Positions 54,464-64,000 of a stretch of DNA of 64,000 bases are shown in pieces. This DNA is from Paucibacter sp. KBW04 (GTDB taxonomy: Bacteria > Pseudomonadota > Gammaproteobacteria > Burkholderiales > Burkholderiaceae_C). The position numbers and the translations under genes are program-made. The notes under the pieces were generated by a model, which was not told where the DNA came from, made no database searches, and saw nothing but the letters and a program-made list of their open reading frames with translations. How positions within the stretch are numbered: the stretch's first letter is position 1; each line of letters begins with the position of its first letter. The stretch is taken from positions 186,001 through 250,000 of the forward strand of contig NZ_QAJN01000014.1 of NCBI RefSeq assembly GCF_003852425.1, written 5' to 3'.

Positions 54464-55105
54464 TCAAAAGCCCAGGCTGGCCAGCAAGTCGTCGACCTCG
54501 CCCTGATTGGCCACCACATCGGTGCGGCCTTCGGGGTTGACCACGGGGCCTTGCAAGATATTGGGGTCCACCTTCTCGCGCTGATCGGGCGGCACCACAG
54601 ACACCAGCAGCTTGACCAGGCTGTCTTCCAGGTCATTGGCCAGGGTCACGACCTTGGCGACCACCTGGCCGGTCAGGTCGTGGAAGTCCTGCGACATCAT
54701 GATGTCGGTCAGATGCGAATCGATGCGGGCCGTGCTGGTTTCCACGTCCTTGACGAAGTTCAGCAAGGCGCCGCTGGCCACGGCCTTGACCGGGTCGGAC
54801 ATGATGGCCTCGGCCATGGCCCGGGTGGCGGTCGTGATGTGGGCGTGATCGGCCTTGGCCTGATCGACCGAGTTCAAGACCTTGTTGGCGGCCTCGGCCG
54901 TCTTGGTGGCGATATAGCTCAGGCGGCTGCGTGCGTCGGGCAGGCCATCGGTGGCGATCTGCAGCTTGGGCATCACGCCCAGTTGCTGCATGGTGTCATG
55001 CAAAACCCGGGTGATGGTGCCGATTTGCTGAAATACCTCAGGCGACACCGTGAGCGGATCGGTGCCGTGATTCAATTTGGCGAGATCTTCCAATTGCATG
55101 GCCAA
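54464..55105 (-). CDS. cheZ: CheY-phosphate phosphatase CheZ
   Basis: Dephosphorylates CheY-P to end the chemotaxis signal, 213 residues, the E. coli length. The catalytic region is QDFHDLTGQVV, containing the Asp and Gln that act on CheY-P. The C-terminal CheY-binding helix is QGEVDDLLASLGF. It starts 8 bp after cheY and is last in motA-motB-cheY-cheZ. Confidence 0.96.
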   Translation of the reverse strand: MAMQLEDLAKLNHGTDPLTVSPEVFQQIGTITRVLHDTMQQLGVMPKLQIATDGLPDARSRLSYIATKTAEAANKVLNSVDQAKADHAHITTATRAMAEAIMSDPVKAVASGALLNFVKDVETSTARIDSHLTDIMMSQDFHDLTGQVVAKVVTLANDLEDSLVKLLVSVVPPDQREKVDPNILQGPVVNPEGRTDVVANQGEVDDLLASLGF

Positions 55106-55113
55106 CTCCAGGT

Positions 55114-55506
55114 TCAGGCCGCAGCGGCCAGTTTTTGCATGATCTTCAGAACCTTTTCCTCCAAGGTGGCCTTGGTGAAGGGCTTGACGATGTAGCCAGC
55201 TGCGCCAGATTGGGCCGCCAGCACGATGTCTTCCTTGCGGGCTTCGGCGGTGACCATCAAAACCGGCAGATGCTTGAGATTGGGATCTTCCTTGATCGCC
55301 TTGAGCAGCTCAAAGCCCGTCATATTGGGCATATTGATGTCGCTCACGACGAAATCAAACTTGCTCTGCTTGAGCATATTGAGGGCTTCCACCCCATCCT
55401 CAGCTTCTTCGCAATTGTTGTAGCCGATCTCCTTGAGCAAACCACGCACGATGCGGCGCATGGTAGAAAAGTCATCGACAACCAAAAATTTCATGTCTGC
55501 GCTCAT
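55114..55506 (-). CDS. cheY: Chemotaxis response regulator CheY
   Basis: Single-domain regulator that binds the flagellar switch when phosphorylated, 130 residues. It has the acidic pair D11-D12 in [15 protein letters not shown], phospho-Asp D56 in [13 protein letters not shown], Thr in MVTAEA and Lys in IVKPFT. It lies between motB and cheZ; no cheA or cheW is in the window. Confidence 0.97.
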
Positions 55507-55533
55507 GGCAATCCTCGCTGGGGCTAAATGGTT

Positions 55534-56490
55534 TTATCGGGGCTTTGTGGGCAAACTTGAGGGGCTTTTCACCGGCTCGGCCGCTGGGGCTTCGTTGGGT
55601 GCTGCTTCTTCCTCGTCCGGAACATTCTTCAACACGGCATCCTCGGCATCGCGGTTCATCACAATAATGCTGATGCGTCGATTGATGGGACTATCGGGCT
55701 GCTTGCTGTCTAGCAGCTTGCTGGAGGCCAGGCCTTGCACACGCAAGGTCCGCGCTTCCGGCAATCCGCCAGCAATCAATTCTCGCCTGGAAGCGTTGGC
55801 CCGATCGGCTGATAACTCCCAATTGCTATACCCACGATCGCCACCCGAAAACGGCTGGGCGTCAGTATGACCTTCCAAAGTCAAACGATTCGGAACTTCC
55901 GACAAGACCGCGCCCAATTCGTGTAGCAATTCATGCATATATGGCTTCACCACGGCGCTGCCGCTGTCGAACATGGGCCGGTTACCCTCGTCAACGATCT
56001 GGATGCGCAGGCCTTCCTTGGTCATATCCAAGCGGATCTGCCCGCCCAATGCCGCCAGCTTGGCGTTATTGGCCAGCACGTCCTCGACCTTGGTCTTGAG
56101 TTGCTCCAAACGCGCCTTTTCTGCCTTGCGCTGCTCTTCCTTGAGTGCGCGCAGATTGAAGGTTCGCTTTTGTGATTCTGTCTCACCGGACTTCACCTGC
56201 CCAGTCTCGCGGCTCAAATCTCTGCCGCCGCCCTTGACCAGGCTGGAGGAGTCACCGGAACCCGAGCCGCCCTGCATGGCGATCTTCAGCGGTGAGCTGA
56301 AGTAGTCGGCAATACCTTTTTTGTCGCCCTCGGTGGTCGAACCCAGCAGCCACATCAAGAGGAAGAAGGCCATCATGGCCGTCACGAAGTCAGCGTAGGC
56401 GATCTTCCAGGCGCCGCCATGCGCTGCATGGCCCCCCTTCTTGATCTTCTTGATGATGATGGGCTGAAGCTTTTTGGCGTCACCGGCCAT
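55534..56490 (-). CDS. motB: Flagellar motor stator protein MotB
   Basis: Stator subunit anchored to peptidoglycan, 318 residues. A single membrane helix starts with WKIAYADFVTAMMAFFLLMW, where D34 is the proton-carrying Asp. A plug and linker follow. The OmpA-like peptidoglycan-binding domain spans about 175-285 (NRLTLEGHTDAQPFSGGDRG, SADRANASRRELIAGGL). The C-terminal extension is acidic. It lies 53 bp after motA. Confidence 0.97.
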   Translation of the reverse strand: MAGDAKKLQPIIIKKIKKGGHAAHGGAWKIAYADFVTAMMAFFLLMWLLGSTTEGDKKGIADYFSSPLKIAMQGGSGSGDSSSLVKGGGRDLSRETGQVKSGETESQKRTFNLRALKEEQRKAEKARLEQLKTKVEDVLANNAKLAALGGQIRLDMTKEGLRIQIVDEGNRPMFDSGSAVVKPYMHELLHELGAVLSEVPNRLTLEGHTDAQPFSGGDRGYSNWELSADRANASRRELIAGGLPEARTLRVQGLASSKLLDSKQPDSPINRRISIIVMNRDAEDAVLKNVPDEEEAAPNEAPAAEPVKSPSSLPTKPR

Positions 56491-56543
56491 GACCGACCTC
56501 CTGCCCTGCGCTTGAAATTCTCATCCTTGCCTGCGACCTTGGC

Positions 56544-57401
56544 TTACTTCTTCTTCACATGAGCTTCCAGCTCACTGAAGGTAGGGCGATCACCCGAGTA
56601 AAGCACCTTGCGGCCGAACTCGATCGCGACCTGGGGGGCGTAACCCTGCATGCTGGCCAAGAGTGTGGTCTTGATGCACTGCAGCTCCTTGCCGGCGTCT
56701 TCCACTTTTTGCTCCAGCAAGCCACCCAGGGGCTCAACAAAGCCATAGGCCAGCAAAATGCCCAGAAAGGTGCCCACCAAGGCGGAGCCGATCATGCCGC
56801 CCAGCACGGCCGGGGGCTGGCCCACCGAGCCCATGGTGTTCACCACACCCAGCACGGCCGCCACAATGCCGAATGCCGGCAGACCGCCGGCCAAACGGGC
56901 GATGGCGGCCACGGCCGCATGTTCTTCCTGGTGATGGGTTTCGATCTCGGCGTCCATCAGGGACTCGATCTCGTGCGCGTTCAGATTGCCCGACACCATC
57001 ATGCGCAGGTAATCGGTAATGAAGTCGGTCACATGGTGGTCATTGCCCACCGTGGGGTATTTTTGGAACAGCGGCGAGGAATGCGGATCCTCGACGTCTT
57101 TTTCGATGGACATCAAGCCCTCTTTGCGGGCTTTTTGCAAGATGTCATACATCAAGGCCAGCAGCTCCATATAGCGGGCCTTGCTGAACTTGCTGCCCTT
57201 GAAGCACTGCCCCAGGCCCTTCATCGAGGCCTTGACCACCTTCATCTGGTTATTGGCAAGAAAAGCGCCGGCAGCGGCGCCGAAAATGGTGATCATCTCG
57301 AAAGGCAGGGCGTGCAGAATCACGCCGATATTGCCGCCGTGGGCAATATAGACACCGAAGATACAACCGAGCGCGATGAGCCAACCAATGATGACAAACA
57401 T
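56544..57401 (-). CDS. motA: Flagellar motor stator protein MotA
   Basis: Proton-channel stator subunit, 285 residues. Four membrane helices: MFVIIGWLIALGCIFGVYIA and MITIFGAAAGAFLA in the N-terminal part, and LPAFGIVAAVLGVVNTMG and MIGSALVGTFLGILLAYGFV in the C-terminal part. The cytoplasmic loop between them contacts FliG. First gene of motAB-cheYZ, with a sigma-28 promoter 29-55 bp upstream. Confidence 0.97.
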   Translation of the reverse strand: MFVIIGWLIALGCIFGVYIAHGGNIGVILHALPFEMITIFGAAAGAFLANNQMKVVKASMKGLGQCFKGSKFSKARYMELLALMYDILQKARKEGLMSIEKDVEDPHSSPLFQKYPTVGNDHHVTDFITDYLRMMVSGNLNAHEIESLMDAEIETHHQEEHAAVAAIARLAGGLPAFGIVAAVLGVVNTMGSVGQPPAVLGGMIGSALVGTFLGILLAYGFVEPLGGLLEQKVEDAGKELQCIKTTLLASMQGYAPQVAIEFGRKVLYSGDRPTFSELEAHVKKK

Positions 57402-57429
57402 GGTGTTTTCTATAGAGACTTAAGCAGCC

Positions 57430-57456
57430 TTATCGGCCTTTGACCGACGCTCTTGA
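57430..57456 (-). promoter_or_regulatory. Sigma-28 (FliA) promoter for motAB-cheYZ
   Basis: Minus strand: TCAAGAGC, 11 bases, GCCGATAA. The -10 element is a perfect match to the FliA consensus and the spacing is exact. It ends 28 bp before the motA start codon. Confidence 0.88.
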
Positions 57457-57527
57457 GTTTGCCTGTGCGCTAGGGCGGCCAATCCACGCAAGAAGCCGGC
57501 TTTGCACCGGCTTTCATGGCCTTGCCC

Positions 57528-58262
57528 TCATGCCCGGGCTGGCATACGGTAGACCCACAGCCGATGAGCACGGGGCAGATCGATGCTGGCCAAGGCGCCC
57601 TGCCCTTGAATCTCAAAGTCCAGACTGACCAGCCAAGCCCCCGGCGCCAGCTGCTGGCAGGCCTTGGCCCAGACCCGCTCCATGGACTCCGGGCGCTGGA
57701 AGACATAAACCATCTGGAAGGGCTGCCAGTCCTGCGCCCACATATCGCCACGGCGGATGCGAGCCCAGGGGCAGAGCAGGCGCACGGCACCGGCCAGCAG
57801 CAGACTCCATTCAATCCCCTCGATGCTGGCCTGCGGATAGATGCGACGCAGCTCGCGCAAGCCATGGCCCAGGCCGCAGCCGGCGTCAAGAATGCGCGCC
57901 TGCGGCGGCAGGGGCGCCAGCTCGGCCAAGCCTTGCAAGGCGTTTTTGGGGGTTGGGAACAAGGGGGCGTCGCCCCAGCTGCGGCGCGGGTATGCCAGCG
58001 CCAGCAAGAGCAAAGGAATCAACCAGGCCCAGGCCGGCAGGTCCAGCGAGCGGGCGCTGATCAACAAAGAAAGCGGAAAACCCGCCGCCACCATCAGGCG
58101 GCGCCAGCGCGGCAGCTGCAAGAACGCCAGCGCCAGACCCAGGGCGGCTGCCATGACGAAGGCGGACAAGGCCTCAAGACCCGCCGAGCGCAGGGCCAGA
58201 AACAAGCCCCAGGCCAAGCCCCAGCTCAGCAAGGCGGGTACAGGCCAGCGCAGCAAAGGCAT
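57528..58262 (-). CDS. Class I SAM-dependent methyltransferase with N-terminal membrane helices
   Basis: 244-residue protein. The first about 85 residues hold three to four hydrophobic helices (LLRWPVPALLSWGLAWGLFL, FVMAAALGLALAFLQL, AWLIPLLLLALAY). The cytoplasmic part is a Rossmann methyltransferase with motif I ILDAGCGLGHGLRELRR at about 118-134 and an acidic motif II in IEGIEWSLLLAG. The substrate is unknown. It starts 21 bp after the flhC copy 1 stop and is thus in that operon, upstream of motA. By position it could modify a flagellar or envelope component; that is inference. Confidence 0.82.
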   Translation of the reverse strand: MPLLRWPVPALLSWGLAWGLFLALRSAGLEALSAFVMAAALGLALAFLQLPRWRRLMVAAGFPLSLLISARSLDLPAWAWLIPLLLLALAYPRRSWGDAPLFPTPKNALQGLAELAPLPPQARILDAGCGLGHGLRELRRIYPQASIEGIEWSLLLAGAVRLLCPWARIRRGDMWAQDWQPFQMVYVFQRPESMERVWAKACQQLAPGAWLVSLDFEIQGQGALASIDLPRAHRLWVYRMPARA

Positions 58263-58283
58263 GGCGAGCAGGCTCCGAGCGAT

Positions 58284-58820
58284 TTAGTGCATCTGGATGG
58301 AGCCGCTGGCGCGACCCTTGCCTGCGCGTGCCGGCGGGTTGCACATGCCGCAGACGTAGTGACGGGCGATCTCGTGCGGATGGGTCACGAAGTGGCCACC
58401 GCAGGTCGAGCACTTGGTCATGGTCAGCATGCCGTTGTCGATGAACTTCACCAAGCGCCAAGCGCGGGTGACCGACAGCATCGCCTCCAGGCCCTGGGCC
58501 TGGGTTTGTTCTTGATAGAGCTGGTAGGCCTTGATGACCGCGTCGATCTCGTCCAGCTCCGAGACCTTGTTCAGGTACTCGTGCACATTCAGGAAGAGCG
58601 AGGCATGGATATTGGGCTGCCAGGTCATGAACCAGTCCGTCGAGAAGGGCAGTTGGCCCTTGCTGGGGCTCTTGCCCGAAACTTCTTTGTACAGGCGCAG
58701 CAGGCGCTCGTAGGACAGATCGGTCTCAGACTCCAGCACTTGCAAGCGCGCACCCAGATTGATCAGGGTCACCGCACGTTCGATTTGGCGGGCTTCGGTC
58801 AGGATGCTTTTGTTGCGCAT
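58284..58820 (-). CDS. flhC: Flagellar master regulator subunit FlhC, copy 1
   Basis: Subunit of the FlhD4C2 activator of class II flagellar promoters, 178 residues. The zinc-binding cysteines C137, C140, C157 and C160 (KCSTCGGHF, YVCGMC) fall at the same positions as in E. coli. The protein is identical over all 178 residues to copy 2 at 60653-61189, while the DNA differs at about 20 places, all silent. Its stop is TAA (copy 2 uses TGA). It lies 45 bp after flhD copy 1. Confidence 0.97.
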   Translation of the reverse strand: MRNKSILTEARQIERAVTLINLGARLQVLESETDLSYERLLRLYKEVSGKSPSKGQLPFSTDWFMTWQPNIHASLFLNVHEYLNKVSELDEIDAVIKAYQLYQEQTQAQGLEAMLSVTRAWRLVKFIDNGMLTMTKCSTCGGHFVTHPHEIARHYVCGMCNPPARAGKGRASGSIQMH

Positions 58821-58865
58821 GATGGAGTCTCTCTTCTTGGGTTTCTTTTGGACGGGGCGGACGGA

Positions 58866-59189
58866 TCAGGCCGCTTCTTGGTGGCGGCCGGCCATCAGAA
58901 TGCTGGCGTGCAGGCGGCTGACGCCGTCGTTAGCGGCCGACTTGCCATGGCTGGTCAGCAGACCCCAGACCAGGTCGTCGTCCATGCGGAAGCGGCACAG
59001 CAAGGTATTGCCCGAGGCAATCTTCATCAGCTGGGCCGGGCTCAGCGTACCGATCAGGGTGGCCGTGTCTTCCGAGATGCCCAGGCGGTAAAGCGCTTGC
59101 TCACGGTCCGCACGGATCAGGCTTTGCGCCAGCATCAGATAGGACAGATTGGCTTCGCGAATCTCGGCGAGGATTTGGTCTGCGTTCAT
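58866..59189 (-). CDS. flhD: Flagellar master regulator subunit FlhD, copy 1
   Basis: 107-residue partner of FlhC. The start at MNADQILAEIREANLSYLML is conserved; GGAG lies upstream (CCGGAGCCGCAAC). C65 in NTLLCRFRMDDD matches the inter-subunit disulfide cysteine of E. coli FlhD. The protein is identical to copy 2 (61235-61558), but the DNA has about 20 silent differences, including two serines coded AGC here and TCG there. Stop TGA. Confidence 0.97.
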   Translation of the reverse strand: MNADQILAEIREANLSYLMLAQSLIRADREQALYRLGISEDTATLIGTLSPAQLMKIASGNTLLCRFRMDDDLVWGLLTSHGKSAANDGVSRLHASILMAGRHQEAA

Positions 59190-59351
59190 GTTGCGGCTCC
59201 GGTAAAAACTGTGTTGGGTGTTGAAAGCATTTGCTATCAACTTGCAACGAATTGTGAAGACCGGAAGTAATCCTCAACATCGGCGCATTTCCGTCCCTGA
59301 AGTCCTCTTTCCTCCCTCCCCTCTGTCAGGTTTCTTCCTACAAGCGAGCTG
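59190..59351 (-). promoter_or_regulatory. Upstream regulatory region of flhDC copy 1
   Basis: 162 bp that differ from the region before copy 2 by one base change and one added A. It includes a 22-base pyrimidine tract on the plus strand (59303-59324; purines on the message strand). I cannot assign -35/-10 boxes with confidence. Confidence 0.65.
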
Positions 59352-59564
59352 AAGACGGCACTTTCCTAGCCTTTTCAAGGCTCGCGAATCAGGGCGGAGG
59401 ATCGCCCACTGTCATAGGAGAAGCTGAGGCTTGGGCCTGTTTTTCAGCGCACTTCACAGCGCGCTTGGGCTTGTAAGGCTTTTTCATCGGCCCGGCCACG
59501 GACGCGCGACGCCTGCGTGCCTGACAGGCAGGTCTTAGAGCCTGTTAAGGCCATGGAAATAGGC

Positions 59565-60623
59565 CTAGGCAGCCGGCGCTTGCAGGCCAAATGCTTGCCG
59601 CAGGGCCTGGGCTTCAGGCGCCCTGCCCGTTCCTTCCAGCAACAAAGCCAGATTGTGGGCGGCAGAAAAACTGCCACGGCCGGCGACGGCGCCGCTTTGC
59701 TCCGGTCGTTCACCCAATTCCAGGCAGCGCCGCCAGGCGTCTTCGATGGTGGGCAGCAAGAGCTCGGCCTGGGCCGGCTGATCGGCCGCAAAGTCCAGCA
59801 GCAAATCGCCGAGGGTGAAGAAAAAGTCGGGCGACTCGGCGCAGATTTGCAGCTGCGTCTCGGCAAACTGGATGCCGGCCTCGTGCTGCTTCAGTTGCTT
59901 GAGGCCAAACAGACGGCGCGCGACCAGATCGGTCCACCAGGCATGGGGCAGTTCGGTCAGCTCGGCGGCGCAGGCAAAACAGCTCTCGGCCTCGGCATAG
60001 TCCTCGTAAACCGAGGCGTCCTTGCCGGTCTGGTACCAGAGATAGGCATCCCCCGGTCGGTGCGCCAGTTCCTGCCGCAAGAGCGCCTGGTTACGGCCCC
60101 GCTTGCGCTGCAAATGCTCGGGCAGATAGCCATCGTGGCCGATACGCAGGGCCAGTGGTCGCAAAGCCAGGCCGTGCAGCACTTGTTCATGCACACGCCC
60201 GGCGTAGCGCAAGGCCCCGGGCAGGATGCGAGACAGGCGGGAGATCGCTTGCTGGGTGCGCCCACCGGAGGCCGTGTCGGCAAACTGGTCCAGCAGCGCT
60301 ATCGTGCCGACGAAGTCGGGGCGTTGCTGGCGCAGCGCGGCCAGGGCCTCGCCGCCAGAGATCAGCCACTCATCTGCGTCCAGCACCACATGCCAGTCGG
60401 CAGCAGCCAAGTCCAGGGCGGTATTGCGCGCCGCCGCGAAATCATCGCACCAGACAAAGTGCTCTACCCGCGCGCCTGCGGCCTGCGCCAGGGCTGGGGT
60501 GTCATCGCTGGAGCCGGTGTCCAGCACCAGCATTTCGTCCACCCAGGGCCGCAAGCTATGCAGCAGGCGCTGGATATGCGCGGCTTCATCGCGGGCAATG
60601 ACGACGAGGCAGACTCGGTACAT
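59565..60623 (-). CDS. Family 2 glycosyltransferase with C-terminal TPR-like region
   Basis: 352 residues. The N-terminal GT-A domain (1-200) starts YRVCLVVIARDEAAHIQRLL, has VLDTGSSDDT and the nucleotide-sugar DxD-type motif VVLDADEWL near residue 95. The C-terminal half is helical and repeat-like (AYLWYQTGKDASVYEDYAEA, ESPDFFFTLGDLLLDF), resembling TPRs. It starts 29 bp after flhC copy 2, so it is probably co-transcribed. A role in flagellin or surface glycosylation is plausible from position, not shown. Confidence 0.88.
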   Translation of the reverse strand: MYRVCLVVIARDEAAHIQRLLHSLRPWVDEMLVLDTGSSDDTPALAQAAGARVEHFVWCDDFAAARNTALDLAAADWHVVLDADEWLISGGEALAALRQQRPDFVGTIALLDQFADTASGGRTQQAISRLSRILPGALRYAGRVHEQVLHGLALRPLALRIGHDGYLPEHLQRKRGRNQALLRQELAHRPGDAYLWYQTGKDASVYEDYAEAESCFACAAELTELPHAWWTDLVARRLFGLKQLKQHEAGIQFAETQLQICAESPDFFFTLGDLLLDFAADQPAQAELLLPTIEDAWRRCLELGERPEQSGAVAGRGSFSAAHNLALLLEGTGRAPEAQALRQAFGLQAPAA

Positions 60624-60652
60624 GGGCGAGACGGTGCGCGCGAAGCTTGCGA

Positions 60653-61189
60653 TCAGTGCATCTGGATGGAGCCGCTGGCGCGACCCTTGCCGGCGCGTGC
60701 CGGCGGGTTGCACATGCCGCAGACGTAATGGCGGGCGATCTCGTGCGGATGGGTCACGAAGTGCCCCCCGCAGGTCGAACACTTGGTCATGGTCAGCATG
60801 CCGTTGTCGATGAACTTCACCAAGCGCCAAGCGCGGGTGACCGACAGCATCGCCTCCAGGCCTTGGGCCTGGGTCTGCTCTTGATACAGCTGGTAGGCCT
60901 TGATGACCGCGTCGATCTCGTCCAGCTCCGAGACCTTGTTCAGATACTCGTGCACATTCAGGAAGAGCGAGGCGTGGATGTTCGGCTGCCAGGTCATGAA
61001 CCAGTCGGTCGAGAACGGCAGTTGGCCCTTGCTGGGGCTCTTGCCCGAGACTTCTTTGTACAGGCGCAGCAGGCGCTCGTAAGACAGATCGGTCTCAGAC
61101 TCCAGCACTTGCAAGCGCGCACCCAGATTGATCAGGGTCACCGCACGTTCGATTTGGCGGGCTTCGGTCAGAATGCTTTTGTTGCGCAT
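60653..61189 (-). CDS. flhC: Flagellar master regulator subunit FlhC, copy 2
   Basis: Same 178 residues as copy 1, including the four zinc cysteines, so equal function is expected. Roughly 20 silent base changes in 537 bp separate the copies; none alters the protein. Its stop is TGA. Followed 29 bp later by the glycosyltransferase gene, in contrast to copy 1, which precedes a methyltransferase gene. Confidence 0.97.
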   Translation of the reverse strand: MRNKSILTEARQIERAVTLINLGARLQVLESETDLSYERLLRLYKEVSGKSPSKGQLPFSTDWFMTWQPNIHASLFLNVHEYLNKVSELDEIDAVIKAYQLYQEQTQAQGLEAMLSVTRAWRLVKFIDNGMLTMTKCSTCGGHFVTHPHEIARHYVCGMCNPPARAGKGRASGSIQMH

Positions 61190-61234
61190 GATGGAGTCTC
61201 TCTTCTTGGGTTTCTTTTGGACGGAGCGGACGGA

Positions 61235-61558
61235 TTAGGCCGCTTCTTGGTGGCGGCCGGCCATCAGGATCGAAGCGTGCAGACGCGACACGCCGTCGTT
61301 GGCGGCCGACTTGCCGTGGCTGGTCAGCAGACCCCAGACCAGGTCGTCGTCCATGCGGAAGCGGCACAGCAAGGTGTTGCCCGAGGCAATCTTCATCAGC
61401 TGGGCCGGGCTCAGCGTGCCGATCAGGGTGGCCGTGTCTTCCGAGATGCCCAGGCGGTACAGGGCTTGTTCGCGGTCAGCGCGGATCAGGCTTTGCGCCA
61501 GCATCAGATAGGACAGATTGGCTTCGCGAATCTCGGCGAGGATTTGGTCTGCGTTCAT
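61235..61558 (-). CDS. flhD: Flagellar master regulator subunit FlhD, copy 2
   Basis: 107 residues identical to copy 1, including C65. Silent changes cluster toward the 3' end of the gene, where GTC-AGC-CGC and GCC-AGC-ATT in copy 1 read GTG-TCG-CGT and GCT-TCG-ATC here. Stop TAA (copy 1 TGA). Same ribosome site as copy 1. Confidence 0.97.
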   Translation of the reverse strand: MNADQILAEIREANLSYLMLAQSLIRADREQALYRLGISEDTATLIGTLSPAQLMKIASGNTLLCRFRMDDDLVWGLLTSHGKSAANDGVSRLHASILMAGRHQEAA

Positions 61559-61721
61559 GTTGCGGCTCCGGTAAAAAACTGTGTTGGGTGTTGAAAGCAT
61601 TTGCTATCAACTTGAAACGAATTGTGAAGACCGGAAGTAATCCTCAACATCGGCGCATTTCCGTCCCTGAAGTCCTCTTTCCTCCCTCCCCTCTGTCAGG
61701 TTTCTTCCTACAAGCGAGCTG
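61559..61721 (-). promoter_or_regulatory. Upstream regulatory region of flhDC copy 2
   Basis: 163 bp, almost identical to the copy 1 upstream region and sharing the purine-rich message-strand tract (61673-61694). DNA further upstream is unrelated between the copies, so distal control could differ. Confidence 0.65.
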
Positions 61722-62150
61722 CGAGACCTCGGCAAGCCCGCCGCCAATCGCAGGTTTTTGCGCGGTGAGCCCGCAGCCCAGAGTGGCGAGCCGCAGGCGT
61801 AAGGCAGACAGCCGCCAATTCCAGGCTGCTTTCACTTCATCGAGAACGGGGCGGATGACAAGCCGCCGACCACGCGCGGACGCTTGGAGCAAGCTCAACA
61901 TGCGTCGTGTGGTGTGCGTCTGCGGACCAAGAAGTTAGGCCGGCGAAGGCTAGGCCAATTCCCGGCGCAAGCGCTAGTGCGGGCCGATCAGCTGCGGCGG
62001 GAATACTGCTCAGCGAGGGGGCTTTGCGGCACAGGCCGACGGCGACAAAGCCAAAAGGCCCGAGAACAATTTGACAGTTCTAGGCACACGGAACTCATTG
62101 CCGATGGGGCGCGGCCTGAGGAGGCGCGCGCCCCAGCCAGGCATCAAGAC
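61722..62150. other. Gap between flhD copy 2 upstream region and TPR-like gene
   Basis: About 430 bp with no gene, hairpin terminator or repeat that I can support; short frames here have no recognisable motif. Confidence 0.5.
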
Positions 62151-62663
62151 TCAGCGATTCGCGCTGTCAAGCAGTGCGTCCAATCGCGCCAACTCGATGC
62201 GCGCGATCTCCGCAAGCTCGGGCGCTTCGTCCATCAGATTGCTCAAGGCAGGGCCTTGCAGCAAAAGCTCCAGCGCTTCCTTGCCGCGCAGGACTTGACC
62301 CTGGCCCGACAGTGCAAAGGCAAGGGTGTAGAGACTGGCACCGTGGGCAGGTTGCAAGAGCAAGGCCCGCTCGGCCGCAGCCTGGGCTTCGGCCAGCTTG
62401 CCGGCACTCAGCAACAAGGCCGCCATATCGCTGAGCAGGTCATGGGCCATGGGCTCATGGCTCAGCGCCTCATGCAAGACGCTCAGACCCAGGTCCAGAT
62501 GGCCGCGCGCCACCTCGGCGAAGGCACGGTTGCGCGCCTCGGCCAATAGCAAAGCGCCTTCGGCGCTGAGGCTTTCAATCAGGCCGCGTTCATTCGTCAT
62601 CTCACCCAAGTGCTGCTGAGCATGCAGCGTTGTAGGCGTCGTTGCTTGCGTCATGGCATGCAT
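62151..62663 (-). CDS. TPR-like helical repeat protein
   Basis: 170 residues, Ala/Leu-rich helices with TPR-like periodicity: ARNRAFAEVARGHLDLGLSV, LSAGKLAEAQAAAERALLLQ and HGASLYTLAFALSGQGQ. ATG 62663 is chosen because GGAG lies 6 bases before it. No signal peptide or membrane helix. Divergent from the flagellin gene. TPR proteins near flagellin genes often accompany glycosyltransferases or act as scaffolds; its role here is unknown. Confidence 0.72.
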   Translation of the reverse strand: MHAMTQATTPTTLHAQQHLGEMTNERGLIESLSAEGALLLAEARNRAFAEVARGHLDLGLSVLHEALSHEPMAHDLLSDMAALLLSAGKLAEAQAAAERALLLQPAHGASLYTLAFALSGQGQVLRGKEALELLLQGPALSNLMDEAPELAEIARIELARLDALLDSANR

Positions 62664-63173
62664 AAGGATCTCCAATAGCTTGAACAAATTGTTCGGTATG
62701 CGCCAGCGGCGCCAGCCTGAAGGGCGATCCCACCATTTCCCTCCACCCTTGGGGCGGGCCCACACGAGGCGAGCGAGGGGCGCAGTTTCGACTTCAGTAA
62801 AGGAAACTTTAGGGCTTGCCGGCAGGGCTATTCGTTAGAAAAGCCCGCTCTTGCGCCCTCTTCTTCAAGCCTTGTGCTTGACCCGGCAACCGAAAACAAG
62901 GACAGAGCCGCTGCAAGACACGGAGACCCCCGAGAGGGGCCCGCTTGCCCAGCCACTCTGTGACCTGACTCCTGATTTCAAACACCGCGACTTCAGCGAC
63001 AACAAAGAAGGTTCCGCCCAAGAAACAGCTCAGCCCGCCAACCCAGTAAGCGACGCACCGGCCCCTCGCCACTCGCCTCCTCTGCTCACGCGGACCCAGC
63101 GAAAAGTCGATCCAAGGAATAAGCCGAAAGCCCAGTCGCTTTTCAACAGATCAAGCCTATTGACAAACAGTCC
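62664..63173. other. Non-coding stretch between TPR-like and flagellin genes
   Basis: About 510 bp before the flagellin promoter. Open frames on both strands are Pro/Arg/Ser-rich and look like chance. It must contain the promoter of the TPR-like gene; I cannot place it. Confidence 0.5.
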
Positions 63174-63200
63174 TCAAGTTCTCTTGAGTGCTGTCCGATA
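63174..63200 (+). promoter_or_regulatory. Sigma-28 (FliA) promoter for flagellin gene
   Basis: TCAAGTTC (63174-63181), then 12 bases, then TCCGATAC (63194-63201). It matches the TCAAG...CCGATA form found at motA and flgM, spacing one base longer. It implies a leader of about 220 nt. Confidence 0.72.
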
Positions 63201-63431
63201 CCCATTTCAACGGGTCTGGAAACGGACACGTGGTCCGGTAAGTAGGCCGCAAGTTGAAGCTCCCCCGATTGGGGAGTCCAGGGTTGCAAAGCTTGACTGA
63301 GCCGGGCGGGGCGGGGGAACTTGCTCCTTAGGAATCAAGTCCCCGCGTAACGGATGTCTCTCGTTAGGGGGGTGTTCGCAACACGTCGGCGCTCAGCCGG
63401 AAAAACTTTGTAGCTGAAACAGGAGTCAATC
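63201..63431 (+). promoter_or_regulatory. Long flagellin mRNA leader with hairpins
   Basis: About 220 nt between the proposed start of transcription and the ATG. Two small hairpins are visible: CTCCCC-CGATT-GGGGAG (63260-63276) and GTGTT-CGC-AACAC (near 63372). The ribosome site AGGAG is at 63421-63425. Confidence 0.5.
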
Positions 63432-64000
63432 ATGCCCGCAATCATCAATACCAATCAGCTGTCCCTGAATGCACAGCGCAATACCTCGACCTCGCAAGGC
63501 TCCTTGGCCGTTTCCATGCAGCGCCTGTCTTCGGGTCTGCGCATCAACTCCGCCAAGGACGACGCCGCCGGTCTGGCCATCTCTGACCGCATGACCAGCC
63601 AAGTGCGCGGCATGAACGTCGCGATGCGTAACGCCAATGACGGCATCTCCATGGCACAGACCGCCGACGGCGCGCTGAGCAAGGTGACCGACGCGCTGCA
63701 ACGTATGCGTGAACTGGGCGTGCAAGCACGTAACGCCACCAACACCACCTCCGACCTGGATTCGATCGGCAAGGAATTCGCGCAACTGGGTTCGGAAATC
63801 ACCCGCGTTCTGGGTGGCACGACCTTCAACGGCAAGTCCATCCTGGCCACGGCCGGCACCTCGACTTTCCAGATCGGCGCCAACACCACGGGCAATGACT
63901 CGGTGGATGTGACCACCACCGATCTGACGGCCGACGCCAGCATCACCGCCGTCACCGGCGCCACCATCAGCAATACCGACACCGCGGCCACGCTGAAGAC
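63432..64000 (+). CDS. fliC: Flagellin (3' end cut by window edge)
   Basis: Filament subunit; 189 codons visible. The N-terminal D0/D1 region is canonical: MPAIINTNQLSLNAQRNTST, then MQRLSSGLRINSAKDDAAGL and AISDRM, and ADGALSKVTDALQRMRELGV. The variable domain begins after about residue 150. AGGAG lies 6 bases before the ATG. Expected to be transcribed by FliA from the promoter at 63174-63200. Confidence 0.97.
   Translation, partial: MPAIINTNQLSLNAQRNTSTSQGSLAVSMQRLSSGLRINSAKDDAAGLAISDRMTSQVRGMNVAMRNANDGISMAQTADGALSKVTDALQRMRELGVQARNATNTTSDLDSIGKEFAQLGSEITRVLGGTTFNGKSILATAGTSTFQIGANTTGNDSVDVTTTDLTADASITAVTGATISNTDTAATLK

Follow-up and report, generated by a model that had tools for sequence, protein, structure and literature searches.

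Paired flhDC loci in Paucibacter sp. KBW04 and its relatives point to concerted evolution of a flagellar master regulator

In textbook accounts, flhDC is the one master switch that turns flagella on. Escherichia coli and Salmonella carry a single class-1 flhDC operon upstream of motAB, encoding the same two proteins in the same order as described here, and the FlhD4C2 complex activates class-2 flagellar promoters. A 64,000-nucleotide stretch of the genome of Paucibacter sp. KBW04 (contig NZ_QAJN01000014.1, positions 186,001 to 250,000; hereafter the window) holds two complete flhDC copies, and the operon is found duplicated and kept alike across several genera. Unlike the single enteric operon, these loci contain two or three flhDC copies, with a glycosyltransferase gene between them and, upstream, a conserved dyad not known to us from enterics. 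How did two copies of a master regulator come to encode the same proteins while differing at silent sites, and why is the second one kept? It is likely, in our view, that the duplication is old and that the copies have been homogenised repeatedly by patchy gene conversion, that is, by concerted evolution.

The two window copies (58284-59189 and 60653-61558, minus strand) are 2.37 kb apart. We call the upstream copy slot A and the other slot B; these were copy 2 and copy 1, respectively, in an earlier note made from the sequence alone. Genomes and loci under comparison carry G- and L-numbers, the window's genome (5.6 Mb, 32 contigs) being G000.

58284..58820, minus strand: flhC of slot B (copy 1), followed by a methyltransferase gene; alignment, Pfam PF05280 (E 1.3e-85), NCBIfam NF009365 over cut-off
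58866..59189, minus strand: flhD of slot B; alignment, Pfam PF05247 (E 3.2e-40), NCBIfam NF002783 over cut-off
59190..59351, minus strand: homogenised upstream region of slot B, counterpart of 61559-61721; sequence comparison
60653..61189, minus strand: flhC of slot A (copy 2); alignment
61235..61558, minus strand: flhD of slot A; alignment
61559..61721, minus strand: homogenised upstream region of slot A; sequence comparison

The earlier note had claimed, from a comparison by eye, that the two copies encode identical proteins and differ only silently, and alignment agrees with it in coordinates and counts. No residue differs in FlhD (107 amino acids) or FlhC (178 amino acids). The flhD copies have 21 base differences (16 silent codons and the stop) and the flhC copies 20 (19 silent codons and the stop); several amino-acid differences would have counted against the claim, and among the 41 base changes there are none. 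The note's AGC-versus-TCG serines are residues 91 and 96 of FlhD, with AGC in copy 1 and TCG in copy 2, and the exchange of stop codons that it described is present too (TGA for flhD and TAA for flhC in copy 1; TAA and TGA, respectively, in copy 2). The copies align over about 1.07 kb at about 96%, with a synonymous divergence (dS) of 0.18; this alignment and the Pfam E-values of copy 1 speak against a resemblance by chance. The nonsynonymous value (dN) can exceed zero without any amino-acid difference, as the method averages over routes from AGC to TCG. What is repeated extends from about 160 bp before flhD through the flhC stop, and past both ends the sequences are unrelated. In the 150 bp upstream of flhD there are 148 matches and 1 mismatch, the rest being a one-base indel.

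The Pfam and NCBIfam models for FlhD and FlhC score over cut-off for slot B, the slot A proteins are identical to these, and in each copy the two genes are adjacent on the same strand; judged by full-length domains, both loci are members of the FlhDC family. They are the sole FlhC matches in their own 5.6-Mb genome, and E. coli was the sole control genome with a PF05280 match. An assembly artefact is unlikely, given 41 base differences within one contig: both copies lie inside a single 312-kb contig with different flanks, and tandem copies also occur in the single-contig genomes G005, G024, G250, G312, and G319. No inverted repeats of at least 20 bases (seed 12) that would speak for a mobile-element origin were found in 55000-64000.

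Following a proposal in the earlier note, both copies were sought in related genomes and trees were built. Among named organisms, the nearest are Roseateles, Paucibacter, Mitsuaria, and Pelomonas (NCBI places Roseateles in Sphaerotilaceae), and the main comparison set comprises 26 genomes with at least two complete copies, the window's included, from six genus groups. The order flhDC-A, glycosyltransferase, flhDC-B, methyltransferase is kept on one contig in 24 of the 26, the exceptions being G024, which is without the glycosyltransferase, and G014, which has a third, partial copy on another contig. Because the same order is kept so widely, the duplication is old. In most genomes the copies are nevertheless young in sequence: within-genome dS is at most 0.30 in 22 of 26 genomes (G005, with three complete copies, has three pairs at 0.14-0.15), whereas the window copies are 0.27-0.95 from those of other genomes (0.27-0.30 for either copy from G004, its nearest neighbour in the trees, and 0.35-0.95 from the other genomes compared). 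G048, G084, and G250 have no base difference between copies in either gene, one further genome has a single difference, and both proteins are identical in 9 of 28 pairs. Non-coding sequence is homogenised as well. The flhD-flhC intergenic spacers are 98-100% alike within G000, G004, G014, G048, G084, G250, G115, and G202, and their length ranges from 15 to 160 bp between genomes. Over the 28 pairs, the slots are unrelated past the flhC stop (0.48-0.67 over 60 bp) and beyond about 200 bp upstream.

The flhC and flhD trees were built from 71 complete copies in 44 of 45 loci (L099, without an flhD start, was left out). Paralogs are sisters in the flhC tree in 19 of 26 genomes, the window pair with support 99/91, and a single clade of all A copies is rejected by the approximately unbiased test (p 2.7e-5 for flhC, 2e-60 for flhD). 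A Paucibacter subclade (G001, G003, and G009) serves as a positive control: there the copies are 0.58-0.71 apart in dS and the trees group them by slot, with good support in flhC (100/95, 100/97) and weak support in flhD (83/55, 88/63).

Divergence also jumps between flhD and flhC within single pairs, as seen in G312, G319, G213, G313, G316, and G024. For example, silent codon differences number 37/91 in flhD and 4/168 in flhC in G312 (p 1.5e-15), 13/94 and 0/168 in G319 (p 9e-7), and 19/92 and 4/167 in G213 (p 2e-6). This comparison excludes the L041 and L043 flhC rows, whose register is shifted by one codon. In the Mitsuaria-type group, silent differences between copies are greater in flhD than in flhC in all 12 genomes, with p < 0.05 in 7, whereas between species both genes diverge equally (medians 0.255 and 0.257). 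Such a mosaic is not expected from vertical descent or from selection on the protein and therefore argues for local conversion. Several Mitsuaria-type copies group by slot in the flhD tree, and a single clade of A copies in this group is rejected by flhC (p 1e-4) and not by flhD (p 0.07). No slot-specific residue, defined as one shared by 9 or more of the 12 A copies with a different one shared by 9 or more of the 12 B copies, was found in FlhD or FlhC of the group. By eye, in L127, L128, and L132-L141, most A copies (11 of 12) have K at FlhC residue 21, where 10 of 12 B copies have H or N; at FlhD residues 51 and 55, every one of the 12 A copies has P51/M55 and 8 of 12 B copies have A51/L55. 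Taken over the whole set, the marks of concerted evolution that we find are sister paralogs, a duplication older than the species, homogenised silent and non-coding sites, and sharp tracts of divergence; of such tracts, the window itself shows only a cluster of changes in flhD.

Several observations weigh against this reading, however. Homogenisation is not universal: in the flhC tree the copies of G001, G003, and G009 split by slot (3 of 26 genomes), those of G314, G321, G322, and G323 are not resolved as sisters (4 of 26), and support for the union of the G014 copies is just 88/0. The window pair itself is joined weakly in the flhD tree (85/40), and its changed flhC codons are not clustered (p = 0.74). 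In the MotAB tree (41 of 45 rows; G007, G014, L097, and L095 left out), the one-copy loci L049 and L055 nest among two-copy genomes, with the enclosing branches at 86/64, 94/80, 92/82, and 100/100, and the Mitsuaria-type group is placed differently in the flhC and MotAB trees. With moderate support for that nesting and with the trees in conflict, any count of gains and losses would be provisional.

That purifying selection alone, with no exchange, has held two anciently diverged copies alike, which is how the earlier note read the locus, is scarcely credible. None of the 41 base changes alters an amino acid, and one pair of copies from each of five genomes in the window's genus gives, in sum, 1 amino-acid against 107 silent codon differences, fewer than the 7 against 90 of two sister-species pairs (Fisher p = 0.028, a modest effect). 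Zero amino-acid differences are thus mildly, not strikingly, beyond background constraint, and to that extent the strict protein constraint of the note stands; the copies are homogenised, however, and not merely conserved. Silent sites and intergenic spacers, which are beyond the reach of protein-level selection, are homogenised too, and the zero-difference pairs of G048, G084, and G250 refute such selection as the sole cause. By itself, divergence confined to silent sites does not show unusual constraint, since these copies, though old in position, are young in sequence (dS 0.18); what holds of the note's remark on retention is that the second copy is kept in six genus groups. A recent, independent tandem duplication in each species without conversion, a birth-and-death history in which the window's pair is merely some time old, would be consistent with the clustering of paralogs by genome in the flhC tree and part of the flhD tree, with the direct tandem pair of G024, which has no recognised gene between the copies, and with dispersed near-identical flhDC pairs in other genera (G047, G190). 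We consider it clearly improbable, given that one gene order, with a homologous glycosyltransferase separating the copies, recurs across genera, that flhC and flhD of one pair give different ages (G312, G319, G213), and that in the 28 pairs the slots are unrelated outside the repeated unit.

Two further explanations are somewhat less improbable. One copy may have been partly replaced by DNA of another strain or species, some of the silent differences then being imported polymorphism; this is compatible with concerted evolution, and we regard it as possible, at a chance well short of even. The changed flhD codons of the window are clustered, 7 within 12 codons (p = 0.009), consistent with a recombined tract that may have come from another strain, and slot B has the longer flhD branch (0.069 against 0.021 for slot A). 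The earlier note saw in the AGC/TCG exchange an odd mutational path through a different amino acid, but no such path is needed: relatives carry TCN, AGC, or AGT at FlhD positions 91 and 96 (G006 has glycine at 91), and since TCN and AGY serine codons are mixed among them, a recombined tract can import the exchange. Against import, no single donor emerges, as relatives match A and B mixedly at the differing codons, and the flhC changes lack the clustering seen in flhD. The repeats might instead act as recombination handles, an exchange between the copies deleting the glycosyltransferase and leaving one functional flhDC; we think this rather unlikely. In seven single-copy loci (L041, L043, L049, L055, L079, L086, and L108), flhDC stands directly before the methyltransferase, and their genomes have no glycosyltransferase match at E 1e-20, which is what deletion between repeats would leave; the nesting of L049 and L055 among two-copy genomes also fits. 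An ancestral single-copy state would look the same, however, a deletion would be irreversible and hence no switch, and the process accounts for loss and not for retention. A glycosyltransferase match is present in 5 of 14 genomes tested.

Under concerted evolution, an old duplication would have set a minimal cassette (dyad operator, promoter, flhD, and flhC) atop two adjoining transcription units, flhDC-A with the glycosyltransferase and flhDC-B with the methyltransferase, followed by motAB with its own promoter. Gene conversion between the copies would then have recurred in tracts bounded by the ends of homology, the dyad on one side and the flhC stop on the other. Selection would keep the proteins interchangeable, most plausibly since FlhD and FlhC from both loci co-assemble in one heterohexamer, and the last large conversion in the window genome would be old enough for 41 silent changes to accumulate. 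The benefit of the arrangement might be dose, or a class-1 promoter for each downstream modification gene.

The earlier note suggested that dose or separate control of the master regulator matters, and the sequence before flhD bears on the second. All 71 flhD copies are preceded, at a distance of 122 to 233 bp, by a 19-bp dyad, TGTAGGAAnnnnnCTGACA, with at most 2 mismatches; 58 of these dyads are exact. The window carries it twice:

59324..59342, minus strand: 19-bp dyad TGTAGGAAGAAACCTGACA, putative operator of slot B; exact genome match at G000:C6:245324-245342
61694..61712, minus strand: 19-bp dyad TGTAGGAAGAAACCTGACA, putative operator of slot A; exact genome match at G000:C6:247694-247712

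These two are the only exact dyads in the genome, one for each flhDC copy. Allowing 2 mismatches, the dyad precedes 87 of 87 flhD starts tested in the named loci against 2 of 1,740 shuffles, a count limited to starts with at least 250 bp upstream and overlapping in genomes with the 71-copy set. In 924 kb of related DNA plus the window, 62 exact dyads are upstream of flhD and 1 is elsewhere. The dyad is inverted in both G250 copies and in L079, and it is not universal: among eight flhD starts in L154-L170, three have it exactly, three with 2 mismatches, and the two of G120 with 4 and 6. A genome-wide regulon was rejected, as the window's genome has 5 other hits at 2 mismatches and a reversed control pattern gives 7 at 2 or fewer. 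The one exact dyad that is not upstream of flhD is in a contig of a metagenome-assembled genome (L074:3936-4596), 127 bp before flhC in a locus with no flhD match; flhD may have been lost there.

A class-1 regulator acting on both copies probably binds the dyad, which thus hints at such a flagellar regulator in this family; the dyad may resemble the boxes of NarL/LuxR-type response regulators. To our knowledge it is not known from enterics, which were not searched, and among the literature matches listed for it there were only what we took for chance word matches. In the window, the proximal 100 bp upstream are 0.98 identical between slots and contain the same dyad, the upstreams differing only beyond about 160 bp, so the differing promoter regions that would be a sign of subfunctionalised flhDC paralogs are not seen. 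Both window copies probably share control. Separate control is unlikely in this genome, where about 160 bp from dyad to start are common to both copies, and because of that shared control dose or the heading of two operons is likelier. In the Mitsuaria-type group, identity between slots over the proximal 100 bp is no more than 0.46-0.61, and both copies keep the dyad with at most 2 mismatches. Local comparison of 250 bp upstream finds the slots still related, with a median score of 43 where shuffled sequences reach 24.5 at most, and the same slot scores higher across species (83 for A, 94 for B). Separate control is plausible in this group, since the proximal upstreams differ between slots and are alike within a slot between species.

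The genes around the copies suggest what each flhDC may head. Reading along the minus strand, one meets a TPR-like gene, flhDC-A, family 2 glycosyltransferase, flhDC-B, methyltransferase, motA, motB, single-domain response regulator (cheY by place and size), cheZ, flhB, and flhA:

56544..57401, minus strand: motA, downstream anchor of slot B; Pfam MotA_N and MotA_ExbB
57431..57456, minus strand: FliA (sigma-28)-like promoter in the interval between the methyltransferase gene and motA (TCAAGAG...GCCGATA); pattern match, no chance estimate
57528..58262, minus strand: methyltransferase-domain gene after flhC-B; Pfam Methyltransf_23 (E 1e-6), synteny
59565..60623, minus strand: family 2 glycosyltransferase between the flhDC copies; Pfam Glycos_transf_2 (E 1e-12), homologue in the same place in relatives
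62151..62654, minus strand: gene with TPR-like repeats, upstream of slot A; Pfam TPR hits, all below the curated cut-off; by synteny, the upstream anchor in many relatives

Only 30 bp separate flhC-A from the start of the glycosyltransferase and 22 bp flhC-B from that of the methyltransferase, so each modification gene is probably co-transcribed with its flhDC. The FliA-like promoter match begins 55 bp upstream of motA, so motAB need not rely on the flhDC-B promoter. No sigma-70 consensus promoter was found in 58200-62200. The glycosyltransferases of two-copy loci are 61-88% identical to the window's over the matched stretches; their tree has 31 rows with matches over 250 amino acids, G084 being absent from it with a match in two pieces (L122:5466-6472). 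The glycosyltransferase in the genome of L040 has one internal stop, and the gene may be decaying in some lineages.

We tentatively propose a two-headed flagellar switch in the Roseateles lineage. One flhDC cassette, from operator to stop and under a dedicated dyad operator, would head two operons, and in each of them the master regulator would be coupled to an enzyme of surface modification. Conversion would be retained as mismatched FlhD and FlhC would poison the shared FlhD4C2, and in the Mitsuaria-type group its near confinement to flhC might let two FlhD variants arise around one FlhC. Fully homogenised, partly homogenised, diverged, and single-copy relatives form a natural comparison set, with which the question of why bacteria keep two identical regulator copies (dose, complex poisoning, or operon heading) becomes directly testable.

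Known cases of concerted evolution offer a measure for the locus. A survey by Wang and Chen (2018, PMC6053082) describes concertedly evolving prokaryotic paralogs, such as tufA/tufB, as more alike within a genome than orthologues are, silent sites included and persisting through speciation, and names recurrent gene conversion as the main force. Its listed cases include electron transfer flavoprotein genes in Burkholderiales and flagellin in Alteromonadales, and a term search of its main text finds no "flh". Unlike the tufA/tufB type, what is homogenised here is a gene pair for a transcriptional master regulator together with the sequence before it, and homogenisation is patchy, stronger in flhC than in flhD in one group and absent in another. 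Among the literature matches listed, there was no report of duplicated flhDC.

The interval between the glycosyltransferase and flhDC-B varies in content among relatives. In G001 it holds a flagellin lysine-N-methylase gene (NCBIfam NF038110, E 5e-62, over cut-off; Pfam CxxCxxCC just under cut-off), which open frames in G003, G006, and G008 resemble, and in G278 a gene for an RCC1-repeat protein. In G005, the stretch from the extra copy to the A copy holds a family 41 glycosyltransferase, a methyltransferase, and a sugar transferase. By locus, genes resembling flagellin lysine-N-methylase or family 41 glycosyltransferases occupy the interval between flhDC copies in L109:8427-14202, L110:8774-11795, L142, and L144. 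The interval looks like a variable flagellin- or surface-modification site in some relatives, with flhDC repeats on both sides. A role in flagellin modification throughout is ruled out by the RCC1 gene of G278 and by the spacers of the window and G024, which have no open frame of at least 90 amino acids.

Duplicates are frequent in the nearest genera. Of 18 genomes in the window's genus, 15 match FlhC and 10 have at least two complete copies; 3 have none, G002, G006, and G007 have one complete copy and contig-end pieces, and G013 and G016 have pieces only. An FlhC match is found in 15 of 16 genomes of the Mitsuaria-type genus, 12 with two complete copies. A family sample of 299 genomes includes 220 with FlhC, 33 with at least two matches, and 12, from six genus groups, with two complete copies within 5 kb (the last two counts were made by eye from tables). 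Neither partial contig-end copies (G002, G006, G007, G013, G014, G016, and others) nor the split assemblies G010 and G011 entered the pair comparisons. No glycosyltransferase was found anywhere in the G024 genome at E 1e-20.

Elsewhere in the family (G047, G159, G190, G205, and G120), two or three flhC loci are present, as in the window, some 93-97% alike where aligned, and no glycosyltransferase match lies near them. Unlike the window's, the copies are on different contigs in G047, G190, and G120 and 1.2 Mb apart in G159. The pairs of G047 (96.3% over 917 bp) and G190 (95% over 818 bp) are near-identical, those of G159 (84.5%) and G120 (about 81%) more diverged, and G205 has three partial copies at 93-97% whose neighbourhood is not readable across contig breaks. 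Short contig-end pairs occur in G235 (99.5% over 195 bp), G168 (98.7% over 149 bp), and G260 (95% over 150 bp). Loci L154-L170 add further genera with near-identical flhDC duplicates, with contig breaks inside flhC in several assemblies, and near-identical duplicate flhDC may be a wider habit of the family.

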